Of a stretch of 64,000 nucleotides of DNA, positions 6,829 through 15,640 are shown piece after piece. The translations under genes were made by a program, and so were the position numbers. Origin of the DNA: Sanderia malayensis (taxonomy: Eukaryota; Cnidaria; Scyphozoa; Semaeostomeae; Pelagiidae); contig RQOL01000660.1 of the NCBI GenBank assembly GCA_013076295.1, positions 124,001-188,000 of the forward strand, in the 5' to 3' direction. The stretch's first letter is position 1, and each line of letters opens with the position of its first letter. A model generated the notes under the pieces. That model did not search any database, was not told where the DNA came from, and worked only from the letters and a program-made list of their open reading frames with translations.

Positions 6829-6963
6829 GGCATGTATCATATCAGTTAAATGTTGAAATTTTACAATCTCAACATTTAACTGATATGATACATGCCTCAA
6901 CATTGTATAATCACTGGGTAATATTAGAATGGTACATAACATTCTAATATTATCCAGTGATTA
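6829..6963. repeat. two adjacent near-perfect stem-loops
   Basis: Arms at 6,829-6,856 and 6,869-6,896 are perfect 28-bp inverted repeats around a 12-base loop. Arms at 6,908-6,931 and 6,940-6,963 form a second 24-bp inverted repeat with one mismatch and an 8-base loop. The pair lies between the Kelch remnant and the 3' end of the TRAF gene. It could be cruciform DNA, RNA hairpins or remnants of small palindromic insertions. Confidence 0.85.
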
Positions 6964-7084
6964 TTTCAAGTTTCTTCTTCAAGGTGATAAAAAGCTACAA
7001 CATTTCATTATTTGACAATTTTTGTTTGTACAAAGTGTACAAATTGTTCATGAAGAGAGATCCTGTTTTCTTGTGAATTCTTTA

Positions 7085-9693
7085 TTAAACATATTCTGAT
7101 ACAAAATCTAATTTAAAGAATAATGCACCATCCCAGATAAAACAGTCTTCAATCTCTGAATGTGAAATAAACGTTGAAAAGCCCACAATAGGATTCATTT
7201 CCTTTGTTGGTTTTTGTACACTGGCATCATTCCGACTTGGAGAAATAACTTTTCTAACATGATCTCCATTGCGATTCAGCAAAGTTATTATAAACTTTGT
7301 TGGAAACGGAAACCTCAGAATATCGTCATATTTACCTTTCATAACAACACAATAAAAGGCAACATGAGTTCCAAAACCAATTTCCTCTTGTTCATTGCCA
7401 TTCAAAAACAGTTTACAGCAAGTTTTGTAACCAAATGTATGGGTGAACAATGGCGGAGAATAAAGCTCTGATACTTTTCCATCACGGGCCTCTTTCATAC
7501 GTCTATGAAAATTGTCTATTTTCCAAATATATTTCCCATCAGTAGTAGTGGCTTGGAACAACCTGACTTTCAAGTCAGTCTCGGCTAAGTTTGAGCGTGC
7601 ATGTTTTCTCTCCTTATCCAATTCTTTCAATTTCCTTTCCATATTGGGTTTATCCAGAGAAGCATTTTGAACAGAAATTTCCTTACTTTTCATTTCAAAT
7701 TGTTCCACCTTTGGAGTTACTCTCTGAATCAGCTTCATTAAAGCAGCCTTTTTCTTTTGGGTATCATTCTTTTGAGACCATGGCATTAATTGACTTAATC
7801 CATCTCTTCTTTCAGAGTAAAGTTTCTTTTCTACATCCAAACCTTCCTTAACTTTATCTGTCCTTGCCATTGACACATTTATTACCTTTTTCATTTCAGT
7901 CAAAGTATCAAAGTCGAGATCTAATTGGGCACTAATTCTACCACAAGTTGACGAAATTTCTATCTGTGTTTGCTCACTGAGAAAATTACTTGTCCATGTC
8001 CCTTGCTCTGACTTAGCAATAAAATAAAAATGACTGGATATATTTTCTTTGTAATGATCTTCAAGTTCACTTTTGTTACCACTGAAATCACATCCAAGTG
8101 ACACCATATCACATGTAAAACACTGCCAAGTACACACTTCCAAGTGTGGCAAAAAGAAAAATATGCTCCCTTCCCATGTGCAGCCCTTTTGCCTCATTGT
8201 GCAAAATACTTGTAGTTTGATGATATCTAAAAGAGCTGATCGATCTGAAATCTCTTCTTCTATCAATTGTTCACACGTAGGACAGAGTTTTTTGTTTTCT
8301 TCTCCCACAATTGGTAAGTCCTCACAGCATGATCTACAGATTCTGTTAAAAAAATTAAAAATTCATTTTTTCAAGATTATTTCCTGACAGCTGTATTGCA
8401 TTACTTCTACCATTTTGGGCCTGTAGCAACTAGGGAGACAGGGGTGGGTGGACAATCCCTCAATAGTTTTTGAAATATAGAGCACAACATTTTGGAGACC
8501 AACAAAACTAAATCCTCTGAGAAGCCCCAAAATCCTAACGAGCCCTCCTCTCTTCAAAAAACCTCCTCCACCTCCCTGTCTGTCCATTGACTGGCAAAAG
8601 CAACCATTTTCTACTCAAGTGGGTGTTAGACTGGTTAAATTTCTGTTGGTGTTAACTTGTGACACCATAATAAACAATAAACTCGACTTTTTAAACGGCA
8701 AACAACCCTCACCAAAACATGTTCCTTTGGTGTGATTTGTGAAATCAGATAGTGGACAAAAGTCATAACGTGTAATATGAATGAATCTGTGTCTGATTAG
8801 TGAATTGATGTCTTGTGAACCAGTGTCTTGCTCTTGAGAGTGAATAGATGAGGTGTGACTGCAGTGGAGCAATGTGAGAGAATCAATATCTTGTTAAAAA
8901 GTGTTTGTGAATCAATTTAACGCAAATGGTAAGTCCTTAATGTATGGAAATTCTAATGTCCTGAATCAATATTCCCCAGCTGTATGTTATATACCATTGC
9001 CATTTATAAGCATGTACATAGTGCAGATAGATTGTCTGTTAGGCGTTGATGGCTATATACCAGTGCTTCACGAGAGATTCTTGTAAAGATATGCAGTTAT
9101 AGTGGATAGAGGTAGTTTGCAGTGTATATATGCAAATAATAAACCATTCTCATCATCCCCAGAATATCTGTCAGGAGCTATGTACGTTGAACAGGGCCAC
9201 ATTTACCCATGGGCCCAGGTCCTCTAAGATTCTTAGATTCAGGGGGCCATTAAACTTTGAAAAACTTGAACTGTTGTTGATTTTATTCTTGTGTTTGAAT
9301 TGAGAAGTAATGTTTTGTTTTCAAACAACACTGTGGCTTCATTATTTGACAATATGTGATCCTATCCTCTAAATAATACACTGTTCCTTGAAGTTGGATA
9401 TCATAAACTGAGTTTGGCACCATCAGCCAATAATCAACATTTTCTTTTAATTTTATTTCCGTTAGCAAATCGTTAATTAATTAAAATTGTCCGTAAAATT
9501 TATGCCCACAGGAAGGGTGCTGAGTACTATACACGTGACAAACAATTTTTTTGGCACTTCAAGGGACACAAATCAATTTTGGGCCCAGGGCCCCAACAGA
9601 CTAGAATGCGATGCGGCCCGAAGGAAATTTGTCATGGCTGGGATGGCCTAAAGTTCTATATATAGGTCATAGACCTATCAACCGCTCATAATA

Positions 9694-9733
<40 letters not shown>

Positions 9734-10043
9734 TAATAATAATAAATATAAATGACGTAATAAATAACAGTTCAGTTCAGTTCAATAAATAACTTGAATT
9801 TGATTTGAAACTCGTATAAAAAAATCGTATAGAATCGAAAAACATTAGGTAAATTTGAGAATAAAACAATTAAAACATCAAATTCAAAACAAAATACCTG
9901 TCACCGCAACCAAGTTGCAACGGATCTTTTAACAGTTGTTTGCACGCAGGACACTTCAATGATTCTCTCAACTTTTCTTTAAACTGAAAATCATCAAAAT
10001 AATCATACGTGCTTGGATTGAAATTTTTTAACTGGACCGTCAT
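7085..10043 (-). CDS. TRAF-family adaptor / RING E3-type protein (RING, zf-TRAF, coiled coil, MATH)
   Basis: Two exons, 9,898-10,043 and 7,085-8,342, joined in phase 2 by a CAG|gta donor and an aacag acceptor. The join rebuilds a RING continuously as CPACKQ, GCGDRICRSCC and CPTCEQ. The protein is 467 residues: RING at about 31-74, TRAF-type zinc fingers at about 95-155, a predicted coiled coil at about 190-310, and a C-terminal MATH/TRAF-C domain at about 317-465 with YIWKIDNF, LYSPPLFTHTFGYK and PIVGFSTFISHSEIEDCFIWDG. TRAFs bind receptor tails through MATH trimers and, through RING, promote ubiquitin signalling to NF-kB and JNK. The usual RING histidine (CGH) is Asp here (CGD). A frame open to 10,169 would start 42 codons earlier, but that part overlaps kappaB motifs, so Met at 10,043 was chosen. 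The paralogue cannot be assigned. Confidence 0.92.
8343..9897 (-). other. intron of TRAF gene
   Basis: Bounded by good splice sites. It contains a (TAA)n microsatellite at about 9,690-9,750. Two GGGCCCAGG-containing segments, at about 9,190-9,250 and 9,560-9,660, may be the ends of a decayed element. No coding exon was recognised. Confidence 0.8.
9690..9755. repeat. (AAT)n microsatellite
   Basis: An uninterrupted run of AAT/ATA units with one interruption near 9,732, in the TRAF intron. Confidence 0.9.
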
Positions 10044-10149
10044 ATCACATCCACTGAATTCTGCTGGTAATTTTGCAATCTTTTGCCGCTTGTATCGCTT
10101 TATCACCACACCACACTGACCACACTCCTTGTAACGGACGGAAGGCAAA

Positions 10150-10180
10150 GGGAAATTCCCGTTGCCCAAGGGGAATTCCC
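10150..10180. promoter_or_regulatory. tandem NF-kB (kappaB) binding motifs
   Basis: GGGAAATTCCC at 10,150-10,160 and GGGGAATTCCC at 10,170-10,180 both fit the kappaB consensus GGGRNWYYCC exactly, and the first is a perfect palindrome. They are 20 bp apart centre to centre, about two helical turns, and lie 107-137 bp upstream of the chosen TRAF start codon at 10,043. TRAF genes feed the NF-kB pathway, so autoregulation is a natural inference. Binding is not shown by sequence alone. Confidence 0.75.
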
Positions 10181-10243
10181 TTACGATGAGATGAGGGAAT
10201 TAGATCATACTCGTGTGTGTCTCAGTTTCAAACACTATGTGAC

Positions 10244-10259
10244 GACGTCAATGACGTCA
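10244..10259. promoter_or_regulatory. CRE/ATF palindrome upstream of the TRAF gene
   Basis: A perfect TGACGTCA palindrome at 10,252-10,259 is preceded by an overlapping GACGTCA half at 10,244-10,250. It lies about 70 bp upstream of the kappaB pair. CREB/ATF and AP-1-type bZIP factors bind this motif in animals. Its function here is inferred from position. Confidence 0.6.
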
Positions 10260-10599
10260 AGAAGGACAATTTGATAAAAGCCCTGTCCACACTACACAAA
10301 CAAACTAACCCAGGTTTGACCCGGGTTAAATATAATCTAGAGCGAACCCTGTTTTGTCCACATTTGATTTTTATGTTTTGTAATAATATGGACACAAAGT
10401 TGGGGCAAACCCAGGTTTGCTAATCCTAGGCATGTGTAGTTAAATTCTATGTCGCGTGAACGGCCAATGGCAGCGAAAAAAGACGACAACAAAAGAACGA
10501 CAGAAATAATTTATCATCACACGATCAGCATGGAAATCGTCGAAGTAGCAGTTTATTGTGGTGTTTTTTCTAAAATGTTACTCCTGGCAATGCAATTTA

Positions 10600-11095
10600 T
10601 CAAAACAAAAATTATATTCTATCCCCTCAAAAAATTCCTTATTTACGCCATTGGTCAGAAGATGATACTGGCAAATTGCTTCCGTTATCACGGCGAATCC
10701 AAGCAATGTGTGAGAACAACATTCTTTAAGATGATAGATCTTGGGGCTTCTGCAGCATCAGATGTCATTGGCGCCGCTATCAAAAGTTATCTTGAAGAAT
10801 CTGGGCTGAGCCTCAATAAACTGATCGCTATGGGGGTTGATGGGTGCAGCACTATGGTTGGAATACACAACAGTGTATCCACCCAATTGAAAGCTTTAGT
10901 ACCAGGTATTGTGATGTTCAAGTGTGTGTGTCACAGCTTGCAACTGGCAGCTAGCAAAGCAGCAGAAGTCATGCCAGATTGCCAGCTCATTGCTCATTTT
11001 GATTTCATGGTGACGGAATCTTATAACTGGTTCTCGTTCTCGCATAGCACAAAGCGGCTAATAGAGTACCGTGAGCTCCATAAGGCAATAACGTG
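10600..11095 (+). pseudogene. hAT-superfamily transposase fragment (ZMYM/DUF4371-like)
   Basis: The open frame 10,449-11,141 encodes, from about residue 75, a stretch with GVDGCSTMVGIHNSV, FKCVCHSLQLAASKAAEVMP and NWFSFSHSTKRLIEYREL. These match the central RNase-H-like part of hAT-type transposases of the ZMYM/zinc finger 862-like group. The N-terminal zinc finger and C-terminal dimerisation domain are absent. The end merges with the gag part of a Ty3/gypsy element at about 11,095. It looks like a dead fragment. Confidence 0.7.
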
Positions 11096-14000
11096 CGAGA
11101 TTGCGGACCCGGATTCATCTTCACCGGCTTTTGATGCCTAACTACGCCGGCAGTTTTTTAAAGGGTTGCCAGTAGAGCTACAATTGAAGTTGTTGGAATC
11201 TCATCCCACCCCAACATTGGCCACAGTGACGTCATTTGCTCAGAGGTCCACTTGCCCTGCCACCGCATGCGCCGCTGTTACAATCAACCCCTCTTGGGCA
11301 TGGAGGAAAAGCCTCTGTGCCAGCTGCAACAACAACTACAACAGCAACAACAACAATTACAGATGGAAGGAACGTTACTGGCCTACTTGTTTTTTCTGTG
11401 GTGCACCCACCTTGGACATATGGTCAGGAATTGTAACAAACGTCAAGTCAAAGAGCGCAGAAATGTACCCTTTGCAATGGCTGGGGCCATCATCCACAGA
11501 ACTGTGTGAATAACCTTAATTTATCTCAGCCACATTCTGAACTACGTCAACAACCAGATCGTAAGTTTCCTTTAAACTTTCAAGGGGTCGGGATGCCTCA
11601 CTATTAGGTTGGAGTGATGAGCATCCCTCTACTTTTGCTTTTGGAACTACTTCTGTTGCTCCCCGTGCCCTAGTTCCTTGCCAACCCCTTGTTTCTTGTA
11701 ATTTTACTGGTGTACCTACAGTTGTCAGCTCTTGTTGACACAGAGTCAATGCAGTCTATTTTGAGTTTTGATGCTTTCCAGCACATTTTTCAGAGCTGTA
11801 CACAGCAAAACATTGTCCCACCGTTACTTGGAAGTAGTTCCAACCAACACTTGTGTATCTATTACTGGACAACCACTGCAACCTGCTGGTGCAGTGGTCT
11901 TCCAGTTCTCATTTCCTGGTTGTGATTTTGAATTTAAGTTTAAATTTCTTGTATGTGCTGCAACCCTTCCAACGCATTATGGGATGGGATTTTATTGTTC
12001 CCTTTCAATTACATTTGGCTTATTCTGGGGATTCCTATTTCTTAAATGGGTGGCATGGCAGTACTCCTTTGATACCTTGGGCCCTCTCTTATGGTTCAAC
12101 TTCCTCTAATTGTTCGATCCTGTCCAATTCTCCTCAGGTGGGTCCGCCTTCTGGCTTTGCCTAGTTGTCCAGCCAAGGGCCACAGTCACCCTCACTCTTG
12201 TTGATAATTTTTCCATCCCTGGTCGTAGTGAGTGTATTTTACAAACCAAGTTACCTCGAGGGTATTCTAAACAGTTAGGCATGGTGTGTAGTTTAGATGA
12301 TTCTCCCCTTATCATTGCATCAACCTTGAATCAACCCAGCCATAGTAAGGTCTTTGTACATGTTTTAAACTCCTCGGAGTCTCCAGTCGAATTACATTCT
12401 GGTCAGAAGATTGCCAAATTTCTTCCAGTTGTTGAGTCTCTTCCAGCTAGACTGAGATCATCTGTTGAAAACATTTGTGCTAGTGTTGTTTGCCAGCCAA
12501 GCATGGACTCTTGCACATTGCAAGAATTAGAGACAGCTGTTAGCTCTAGTTTATCTAGCCATGATCATAATCAGTTGTTCCAGACTTTGCTTAAATTTCC
12601 TGATGTGTTTAACAATGGCACCATGACTACTCATAAGATTAGCACAGGTGATTCCCCTCTGATCCATCAACACCCTCAATGCCTCCCCTATCACTACAGA
12701 GGTGGGGTTGACAAGCAAGTTCATGACATGCTTACCCAAGGTGTTATCAAACCTAGCACCAGCCCCTGGTCTTCTCCCATTGTCCTTGTAAAGAAAAAGG
12801 ATGGGTCTTATCAATTTTGTATTGATTATTGGAAATTAAATTTAGTAACCAAGCATGACCCTATTCCCTTGCCTCAAATTGATGACTTGCTGGACGCCTT
12901 AAATGGGTATAACATCTTTAGTACCTTGGACCTTCGCAGTGGATATTAGCAAGTCAGTGTAGACCCAGAAGGTAGGGAGAAAATAGCTTTCATGACACCT
13001 ACTGGTCTATATGAATTTTTACGAATGCCATATGGGCTATCCAGTGCCCTGGCTACCTTTTCACGGGCCATAAATGTTGTCCTGTCTGGTCTCGCCTACG
13101 AAACTTGCTTGTGCTATTTTGATGATGTAATTGTTTTTTCCAAAGATATCAACCAGCATTGTGATTGTTTGAAATCTGTTTTGCAACGTTTTCAAGAACA
13201 AAATCTCCGTTTTAAAGCTTCTAAGTGTTCATTGGCTCTCACGAGGTTGCTTACTTAGGGCAAACTATTTCTAAAGATGGTATTCATACTGACCCCAAAA
13301 AGGTTAAGGCAATTCAAGACATCCCAGCCCCTTCTACCCTGGAGAAGCTACGATCCTTTCTGGGACTTGCATGCAGGCTACTACACGCGGTTTATACCGG
13401 AGTTTGCCACCATTGCCTCTCCCCTAATGGCCCTCACTAAAAAAAGCTACTCGATTTCTATGGACAGATATCACCAAAAAGCATTTGAATACCTCAAAAC
13501 CTGCCTCTGCTCAGCACCTATTTTAGCCTACCCTTGCTTGAACAAGACCTTCATCCTACAAACTGACGCATCAGATGTTGGGTTGGTGCCGTCTTAACCC
13601 AGCTTGATGACTCAGGCCATGAAATGGTCATATCATATGCCAGTCGAACTCTCACAAGCCGAGAACAAAATTACACAGCAATGGAGAAAGAAGCATTGGC
13701 TGTTGTGTTTGCAACTGAACATTTTCGTGTATATTTTTTGGGCCGTCAGTTTCAACTTATTACTGATAATAGAGCTTTGATGAAGTGGCTCCATTCTATT
13801 CAAGCTATAGGTAGAATTGCTAGATGGATTATGCACTTTCAAGAATTTGATTTTGTCGTGTCACACCTCAAACCAAAATGCAGACGCTCTCTCTCGCTTA
13901 AATCATAGATGTTCCCCTTCTCCCTCTGAACCACCGAACCATTCCACGAACACCCCTGTCAACTGCTTTGTTGGTCTTATGCGAGGCACATATTTGTACA

Positions 14001-15640
14001 CCGCTCAACACCAAGATTCCAATATTTTGAAGGTCATTGAAATGAAAGAACAGGGCTTCTCTCGGCCCCCATAATTTGTGTGGTCCAAATATCAGCACTG
14101 GTCGCATATTGTTCTTGTTGGGACCAACGTTTTGTGGATCGTGGCATATTAATGAAATCAATAGACCCTAATAGCTCTTTTCCCAATAATGTTGTTGTTG
14201 TGCCTCAAAACTTAGTAAATGGTGTCCTCCATAGTCTACACAGTGGCCCTTCTGGGGGTCACATGGGTATTACTCGCACTATCTGCAGGGCTAATAAGCG
14301 GTTCTTCTGGCCTCAAATGCATGCATCAATTAAATCATTTATTCAAAGCTGTCCTGAATGTAGCCAAATTAAGCAGAATCCACACAACACCAAGGCCCCT
14401 TTATAACTAATTCAGATTAGCGAGCCATTTGTTTTTTGGGCTATGGACTATATGGGGCCTATTAAGGAAACATCACGCGGCAAAAACAGATACTTGTGCT
14501 CATGAACCACTTCACCAAATGGTGTGAAGCATTCCCTACTCCAGATCAGAAAGCGTCGAATGTAGCTAAAGTTTTTGTATCTCATGTTTTTTCTCGTTTT
14601 GGCCCACCTACAGTTCTCCATTCTGACCAGGGTCACAATTTTGATAGCATACTAATGCATGAAATATATGGTTTGATGGGCATCAAAAAGACCCGTACCA
14701 CTGCCTACCATCCTCAATGTAATGGACTTAATGCAGAGACACAATCGTACCCTTCCAAGTATCTTTGAAAATCGGAAACATAGCGAAACATAATAACTAC
14801 TAAAACTTTTCGTCTGGCACTCATCAGAGTAGTACGTCAGAAAGAGAACGAAAATGAAAACCAAATGAAAACAACAAAATTTCACTTAGGAATTTTAGAA
14901 TCTGTCTACATCAAAACCATGGATCCCATATTGTGTAGACAGAAAGAGTTCGTTTTCCCACTGGGACTCTTTCAGTAATCTATTGTTCGGTCACCGGTGA
15001 TGATTGGTTGTTTTGCACTTTACCAATCACTCACCTCTTTTCTGATTGGCCAATTTCGATCCTCTTCTGGGTATAATTGTTTGCTAGGTTTTCATTTTCG
15101 TTCTCTTTCTGACGTACTACTCCGATGAGTGTCAGACGAAAAGCTTTAGTAGTTATTATGTTTCGCTATGTTTCCGATTTTCAAAGCTATTTTGAAGTTC
15201 TGTACTGATCAAAGATTGTCCTTCAAAGTATCATATCTAGCTTTATGTCAGAACATAATGTCGATTGGGATGATTGGCTAAGGAAAGCTCTTAGCCACTC
15301 CAATCAACTTGCACAGCGTAATTTAGTCAATGTTAGAGCTAAGCAAGCTTCCCAGTATGACAACAAGAGTAAGATAAATTGGCAGCTCTTTGAGTCAGGA
15401 CAGACAGTCTGGCTTTGGCGCCCCAAGCATTGGAAATTCGGTAAACGATGGACTGGCCCTTACAGAATACAGTCAAGAGATGGGGTTAATTACCGGTTAA
15501 CATCGTCCATGGGAAAATCTCTTATTGCTCATCATAATATCTTGAAGCCTTGTGTCTTACCTTTAGGTCAAGGTTTTCCAGTCTATGCAGGGCCAGAAGC
15601 CCCTGGCATCAGGGTTTATTTATTTGGCAAATTTTAATCA
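11095..15640 (+). mobile_element. Ty3/gypsy LTR retrotransposon, decayed
   Basis: Domain order gag, PR, RT, RNase H, IN identifies Ty3/gypsy. Gag remnant: GLPVELQLKLLESHP and a frameshifted CCHC knuckle near 11,390-11,430. Protease: LVDTES at about 11,730, with the DTG signature changed to DTE. RT: VKKKDGSYQFCIDYWKLN (12,790-12,840), stop at 12,948, then YEFLRMPYGL and YFDDVIVFS. RNase H: QTDASDVG, SREQNYTAMEKEALAVVFA. Integrase: HHCC-type finger at 14,220-14,380, catalytic core with HSDQG and TTAYHPQCNG to about 14,740, and C-terminal domain at 15,245-15,637. Stops and frameshifts separate these parts, so the copy is inactive. The 5' end is missing and no LTR pair was found. A 456-bp insertion splits the integrase. 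Confidence 0.92.
14764..15219. mobile_element. palindromic MITE inserted in the gypsy integrase
   Basis: An inverted repeat of about 100 bp begins TTTGAAAATCGGAAACATAG near 14,764 and returns as its complement ending CCGATTTTCAAAG at 15,186. The insertion interrupts the integrase between RTLPSI and ISSFMSEHN. A 13-bp target sequence, CCTTCCAAGTATC at 14,751-14,763, recurs with one mismatch at 15,220-15,232, which looks like a target-site duplication. About 33 bp between the right arm and the repeat are not palindromic. It encodes nothing. Confidence 0.8.

Follow-up and report, generated by a model that had tools for sequence, protein, structure and literature searches.

A candidate NF-kB-responsive promoter with paired kB sites upstream of a TRAF gene in an early-branching animal

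Is a TRAF gene of an early-branching animal under the control of NF-kB, as suggested by a cluster of motifs that immediately precedes its start codon? The gene is encoded on the minus strand of the window, that is, the entire 64,000-nucleotide stretch of DNA analyzed here (C616:124001-188000 of a 184 Mb genome; unless a contig is given, all coordinates are those of the window). The motifs all fall within the presumed proximal promoter and 5' leader of the gene, a stretch of about 234 bp (10044..10277, minus strand) for which there is no other match among the best candidates scored in a genome search. The evidence described below makes it probable that this stretch is an NF-kB-responsive TRAF promoter that functions in an NF-kB/TRAF feedback circuit.

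The gene consists of two coding exons and encodes a TRAF protein of 467 residues with a MATH domain and a probable RING domain, with the reading frame intact. Coding exon 1 (9898..10043, minus strand; ATG at 10043-10041, donor GT at 9897-9896) covers the first half of the probable RING domain (match of residues 1-50), and coding exon 2 (7085..8342, minus strand; stop codon at 7087-7085) covers the second RING half, a zinc-finger-like region, a middle region and the MATH domain; the intron between them contains a long ATT/TAA run. The C-terminal MATH/TRAF-C domain is identified with an E-value of 5.1e-27 (PF21355, 95.1 bits against a cut-off of 27.4), and both ends of the protein match solved structures, namely, TRAF3 at the C-terminus (chain 8zuk_A, E-value 6.4e-32; the solved TRAF3 structures match up to residues 253-460) and TRAF5 at residues 17-128 (chain 7l3l_A, E-value 1.2e-10), so that the assignment to the TRAF family in the initial annotation is supported. 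The probable RING domain matches PF15227 below the cut-off (E-value 9.4e-5, 22.9 bits against 30), and the sole match in the zinc finger region is to Sina_ZnF (residues 92-149, 21.9 bits against a cut-off of 32). The homologue P0001 shows 38% identity over 99% of the protein and aligns from its N-terminus, which supports the ATG at 10043. The 3.9 kb read for a paralogue fragment (69% identity over 29 residues) are devoid of kB sites. Just 3' of the TRAF stop codon (6830-6990), long imperfect inverted repeats are apparent by eye and possibly represent small hairpin elements.

On the gene strand, the order of elements is as follows: a perfect CRE/ATF (bZIP) site, TGACGTCA (10252..10259, minus strand; ends 208 bp before the ATG); an adjoining second CRE-like box, TGACGTCGTCA (10240..10250, minus strand); the distal kB site GGGAATTCCCC, which reads GGGGAATTCCC on the plus strand (10170..10180, minus strand; ends 126 bp before the ATG); the proximal kB site GGGAATTTCCC, or GGGAAATTCCC on the plus strand (10150..10160, minus strand; ends 106 bp before the ATG); a start-stop upstream ORF, ATGTGA (10045..10050, minus strand), 1 bp before the TRAF start; and the ATG itself (10043). 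Thus, all three mismatch-free motifs of the initial annotation are present, and its statement that the kB sites lie two helical turns apart is accurate, their starts being separated by 20 bp. The upstream ORF (10050-10045 on the minus strand) could dampen translation of the TRAF gene.

On the far side, this stretch is bounded by the end of a repeated element that starts at about AAGCCCTGTCCACACTACACAA (10278..10622, plus strand) and has 40 other matches in the genome. A genome search with positions 10040-10440 of the window retrieves the query itself and these 40 matches, all of which start at query positions 226-261, that is, at 10265-10300 of the window. Nine copies were compared: seven of them remain similar as far as 10622, and in five of the nine an inverted copy of the repeat end is found 0.6-0.7 kb away. 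Given that the repeat starts at about 10278, the motifs are confined to the ~234 bp between the repeat and the start codon. Beyond the boundary, the region 10278-15637 (plus strand) consists of the repeat end followed by broken ORFs that by eye resemble hAT-type and gypsy-type remains; two of these ORFs have no Pfam match.

The kB pair in this position can hardly be due to chance. According to Markov models of the window, each of the kB 11-mers is expected 0.016-0.031 times per 64 kb. In the entire genome, there are 90 copies of GGGAAATTCCC and 195 raw matches of GGGGAATTCCC, in which GGGGAATTCCCC is counted twice; under the assumption of independence, these counts yield an expectation of 0.006 mixed kB pairs at most 30 bp apart per whole genome. 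With relaxed kB motifs, the six occurrences in a 191.7 kb background translate into 0.007 expected in 234 bp, against two observed; this background, made up of the rest of the window and of loci fetched for other reasons, was not chosen for kB sites and is not a random sample. The CRE alone is unremarkable: TGACGTCA is found twice in the window, where 0.62 copies are expected, and a count of two is also reached in 16 of 100 shuffles. The initial claim that two neighboring kB sites are unlikely to have arisen by chance stands. The tandem CRE ATGACGTCAATGACGTC is neither unique nor clearly enriched in the genome: with up to two mismatches allowed, it has 68 matches, the reversed control has 40, and the window copy deviates at one position.

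Support for genuine NF-kB sites also comes from other genes of this genome. A Pfam search for the Rel homology domain (RHD) yields three exon matches over the cut-off, all from the same locus (C809:955273-956753, minus strand) and two of them recovered in a second search, and no other Rel-homology locus was found. When the RHD exons are joined, the best match among solved structures is NF-kB p105/p50 (E-value 4.5e-25); by this match, the Rel protein of the genome is p50-like. The 11-bp symmetrical form of the kB site would suit dimers of the p50 class. One of the copies of GGGAAATTCCC precedes the first RHD exon match of this gene by 1,128 bp and is located 69 bp before the ATG of the first exon (MKGAANISVNPEVNQKQSG), which is itself a prediction from the sequence, and 392 bp before the next candidate ATG. 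A second kB word, GGGACTTTCC, lies 343 bp upstream of this GGGAAATTCCC.

The TRAF/MATH genes of this genome have undergone a large expansion, with at least 91 exon matches, a lower bound. For one of the genes among these matches, denoted TRAF-B (C781:479146), GGGAAATTCCC is found 3.3 kb before the MATH exon. The gene model P0055, which is identical to TRAF-B over the MATH exon and has its first residue at position 1424 of the respective stretch (L053), places the site 168 bp before the start codon. It is followed by GGGAAAATCCC, 44 bp downstream and 113 bp before the start codon, and by TATATAAG, which begins 40 bp after GGGAAAATCCC and 73 bp before the start codon. The named non-bilaterian relatives of TRAF-B among the best 120 of 385 matches include Ephydatia muelleri and the gorgonian Paramuricea. 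TRAF3_RING exons were found for four further TRAF genes, and 1.0-1.1 kb around or upstream of each was read. A kB site is present in one of the four (C726), where GGGGATTTCCC precedes the ATG by 505 bp and the candidate splice donor of a non-coding first exon by 143 bp; in the other three, there is no kB site within the 1.0-1.1 kb, a stretch that in some of them may be intronic. Thus, the feedback promoter postulated in the initial annotation gains support on two points: this genome has a gene for a p50-like Rel protein, and the NF-kB gene, like at least one TRAF gene besides that of the window, has the same rare site close to its start. The accompanying proposal of a kB/bZIP layout fares less well: the CRE is present in the window promoter, but TGACGTCA is absent within 800 bp of both the NF-kB gene site and the TRAF-B site.

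Across the genome, GGGAAATTCCC is found within 5 kb on the 5' side of three of 121 TRAF/MATH, Rel, TIR, Death and IRF matches, against 0.30 expected (P = 0.003), and within 5 kb on the 3' side of none of the 121. This list comprises 88 TRAF/MATH matches (from the 91, three matches to second exons were removed by hand) and 33 others, a few of the entries being exons of one gene. When the window is excluded, GGGAAATTCCC is still located within 200 bp of the start codon at two genes, namely, the Rel gene and TRAF-B, whereas 0.012 are expected for 120 (P = 7e-5) in a list where the starts were located for only a few; at 400 bp, the expectation is 0.023 (P = 3e-4). At 10 kb, a fourth gene match (on C421) is added, with a GGGAAATTCCC that belongs to a repeat family. 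The association does not extend to the other classes: no GGGAAATTCCC is present within 5 kb upstream of the TIR (3), Death (27) and IRF (2) matches, and of the upstream stretches read for six such pathway genes (MyD88-like, IRF, TIR and Death), none has a kB site within 1.6 kb. One GGGAATTTCC is found about 1.65 kb before the possible starts of the MyD88-like gene; the other five stretches are free of kB sites.

The possibility that kB sites are general markers of immune genes was considered and rejected. The neighborhoods of 60 other GGGAAATTCCC occurrences were read; together with the window and the NF-kB and TRAF-B loci, these account for 64 of the 90 sites (one neighborhood, L082, holds two), and 25 of the 60 fall into seven clusters of similar copies. 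The 60 loci contain 638 stop-to-stop ORFs of at least 50 residues; 11 near-duplicate loci were left out, the 150 longest ORFs were listed, 14 were dropped by hand, and the remaining 136 were scanned against Pfam, a test that misses small exons. No immune family appears among the 25 of 33 matched families that were listed; these include receptor, zinc-finger, helicase, transposase, reverse-transcriptase and protease families. The kB word is therefore no reliable marker in itself, and the argument rests on its place at the few genes described above. Similarly, all three kB words are in excess over the reversed-letter control (195 vs 12 for GGGGAATTCCC, 90 vs 25 for GGGAAATTCCC and 179 vs 19 for GGGGATTTCCC), but this excess does not translate into kB promoters throughout the genome because repeats account for many of the copies. 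For example, among the eight GGGGAATTCCC loci that were read, L001 to L006 represent one repeat family, with L005 and L006 being one and the same locus in the two orientations.

The window, NF-kB and TRAF-B sites are distinguished by company as well: a second kB word within 500 bp is found at all three of these loci, compared to nine of the 60 other loci, or seven of 42 after thinning of the clusters (Fisher P = 0.008), with the proviso that the three were not chosen blindly.

Among the explanations other than an NF-kB-responsive promoter, the one that survives best, although it appears unlikely, is that the pair arose by chance or by a non-functional local duplication, such that one kB-like word was copied 20 bp away and then picked out by eye. 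The two cores differ in only one of the 11 positions, so that an old local duplication of one kB site would lessen the surprise of the pair; furthermore, the motif was chosen in the initial annotation after it had been seen, and repeats raise the number of such words in the genome. Against this explanation stand the expectation for the pair, which is far below one per genome as given above, and the recurrence of this site close to the starts of the NF-kB gene and of TRAF-B; in addition, the flanking letters of the two window sites have by eye no duplicated look and do not align as a duplication would.

Another explanation, which is quite improbable, holds that a cassette of kB and CRE words was brought in by a transposable element and may serve, or have served, this element rather than the TRAF gene. 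The repeat indeed begins only about 18 bp upstream of the CRE, and CRE and kB words occur jointly in several repeats of this genome. In one family (L061, L065 and L066, located on C392 and twice on C437), each of the three copies read has two kB sites exactly 20 bp apart, and two of the three have a CRE at 126-141 bp from the kB sites; thus, this family shares the kB geometry of the window promoter, without any sequence match to it. Two further members of this family, C421:45514/45534 and C658:37751/37771, have the 20-bp spacing according to their listed positions. In another case (L105, positions 647-807; C817:316930-318530), two GTGACGTCAGGGGA(A)TTTCCCCG modules, in each of which a CRE is fused to a kB site, are 138 bp apart, near a reverse-transcriptase-like ORF. 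For GGGGATTTCCC, 12 same-strand pairs with a spacing of 136-139 bp were noticed by eye, which make up 24 of about 100 places listed, and several of the GGGGATTTCCC pairs have a mirrored counterpart at a distance of 3.7-5.7 kb. CRE and kB modules may thus be carried through the genome by a repeat with inverted ends. Counting all of the 60 other GGGAAATTCCC sites, a CRE TGACGTCA is found within 150 bp of five (L061, L066, L095, L105 and L107), compared to about 0.6 expected from six CREs in the 191.7 kb background; among the five, L061 and L066 belong to one repeat family and L105 looks repeat-borne. The sequence itself, however, speaks against an origin of the window promoter from such an element. 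No other copy of the window from 10040 to about 10264 is present among the best candidates of the genome search, which are the ones that this search scores, and the 200 bp on either side of the window kB site give no alignment longer than 30 bp with any of the 70 other kB centers compared, so that the spacing is common and the sequence is not. The kB sites of the NF-kB gene and TRAF-B likewise give no alignment longer than 30 bp with the other kB centers compared.

Sites of the type TCCCnnGGGA, which are recognized by EBF, resemble a kB word turned inside out. It is very improbable that the promoter is regulated by some other factor that binds GGGAA..TTCCC, such as a zinc-finger or EBF-like protein, and not by NF-kB: the consensus alone does not name its binder and kB words cluster elsewhere too (a second kB word within 100 bp at four of 42 repeat-thinned loci, against 0.26 expected), but the location of the site near the NF-kB and TRAF starts, together with the GGGACTTTCC at the NF-kB gene, is not readily explained by such a factor.

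Under the preferred reading, namely, an NF-kB-responsive TRAF promoter, p50-like NF-kB would bind one or both of the 11-bp kB sites, which, being two turns apart, would be exposed on the same face of the helix, and a bZIP dimer (CREB, ATF or AP-1) at the neighboring CRE pair would probably help to raise TRAF transcription. NF-kB would raise the expression of its own gene in the same manner, via the kB site at the NF-kB gene start, so that the same kind of site would operate at the starts of the NF-kB gene and of at least one further TRAF gene, and probably of two. Once activated, NF-kB would in this way increase its own level together with that of TRAF adaptors of its pathway, which amounts to a feedback circuit, the sign of which cannot be read from the sequence. 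The parts of this circuit that we infer are the transcription start, the first exon of the NF-kB gene, binding, inducibility, co-operation of the CRE, and feedback.

Circuits of this kind have precedents. In mammals, TRAF1 is an established target of NF-kB and feeds back on it (PMC8286839). The likeness consists in a TRAF gene under NF-kB control, the product of which acts on an NF-kB-activating pathway (PMC8286839); in the window, such control is predicted. TRAF1 is described as lacking a RING domain (PMC8286839), whereas the TRAF of the window appears to have one; furthermore, induction was measured for mammalian TRAF1 and is inferred from sequence in the present case, and no orthology to TRAF1 is claimed. 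In the sea anemones Nematostella and Exaiptasia, the predicted NF-kB targets include several TRAF3-like genes (PMC13042239), which is another instance of TRAF genes as likely NF-kB targets in a non-bilaterian animal; compared to these predictions, the present case provides the exact sites, their rarity, and a matching site at the NF-kB gene. In Ephydatia, TRAF3-like expression is reported among the genes related to algal symbiosis (PMC7882143), and the 2026 review calls the TRAFs that are up-regulated in symbiotic Ephydatia "typically negative regulators" (PMC13042239). By this statement of the review, TRAFs are not simply activators of NF-kB, and the premise of the initial annotation that TRAF proteins activate NF-kB was too simple.

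The closest parallel at the level of expression is the sponge Amphimedon, where exposure to native bacteria causes, at 2 h, a transient induction of NF-kB, Jun, Fos, 11 other bZIP genes and eight TRAFs; the early response also includes IRF, and NF-kB enters the nuclei (PMC13372038, 2026). This co-induced set is what the kB and CRE layout of the window would predict. The evidence in the Amphimedon study is expression and nuclear entry, and the terms "motif" and "binding site" are absent from its main text (PMC13372038), whereas the evidence from the window consists of sites. In the unicellular holozoan Capsaspora, gel shifts with a GGGAATTCCC probe show NF-kB complexes, and kB sites were sought in 500-bp upstream regions (PMC8677719); the type of site and the logic of the promoter scan outside bilaterians are the same as here, and the difference is that the pertinent passages of that paper mention no TRAF promoter. 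Among the titles listed by literature searches, none was recognized as describing kB sites in the promoter of a TRAF or NF-kB gene of a sponge. Thus, TRAF genes as NF-kB targets are already known from elsewhere, and this particular member of the kind appears to be new.

The combined observations suggest an old self-regulating immune circuit of a kind known from other animals. A broader and distinctly tentative proposal, which we regard as possible rather than likely, is that in an early-branching animal NF-kB and several TRAFs share rare 11-bp p50-type kB sites at the starts of their genes as parts of one cis-encoded autoregulatory loop, and that the spread of such promoters could have been due to repeats carrying kB and CRE words. 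In that case, the NF-kB/TRAF loop would either predate the split of this lineage from other animals or have arisen there again. The element of about 115 bp (10145-10260) is a concrete candidate for the link behind the co-induction of NF-kB, bZIP and TRAF genes observed in Amphimedon (PMC13372038), and the matching sites at the NF-kB gene and TRAF-B make the notion that NF-kB controls its own adaptors in basal animals directly testable.

Two further observations concern loci outside this set. Outside the repeat clusters, GGGAAATTCCC is accompanied by a second kB word at a distance of 32 bp in L083, 21 bp in L086 and 29 bp in L082, and in L082 a UPF0193 match lies beside the kB sites. In the MyD88-like gene (L115, C405:2426700-2429000, minus strand), the Death and TIR matches are about 1 kb apart, and a perfect CRE lies 13 or 58 bp upstream of the start codon, depending on which of two candidate ATGs is taken.
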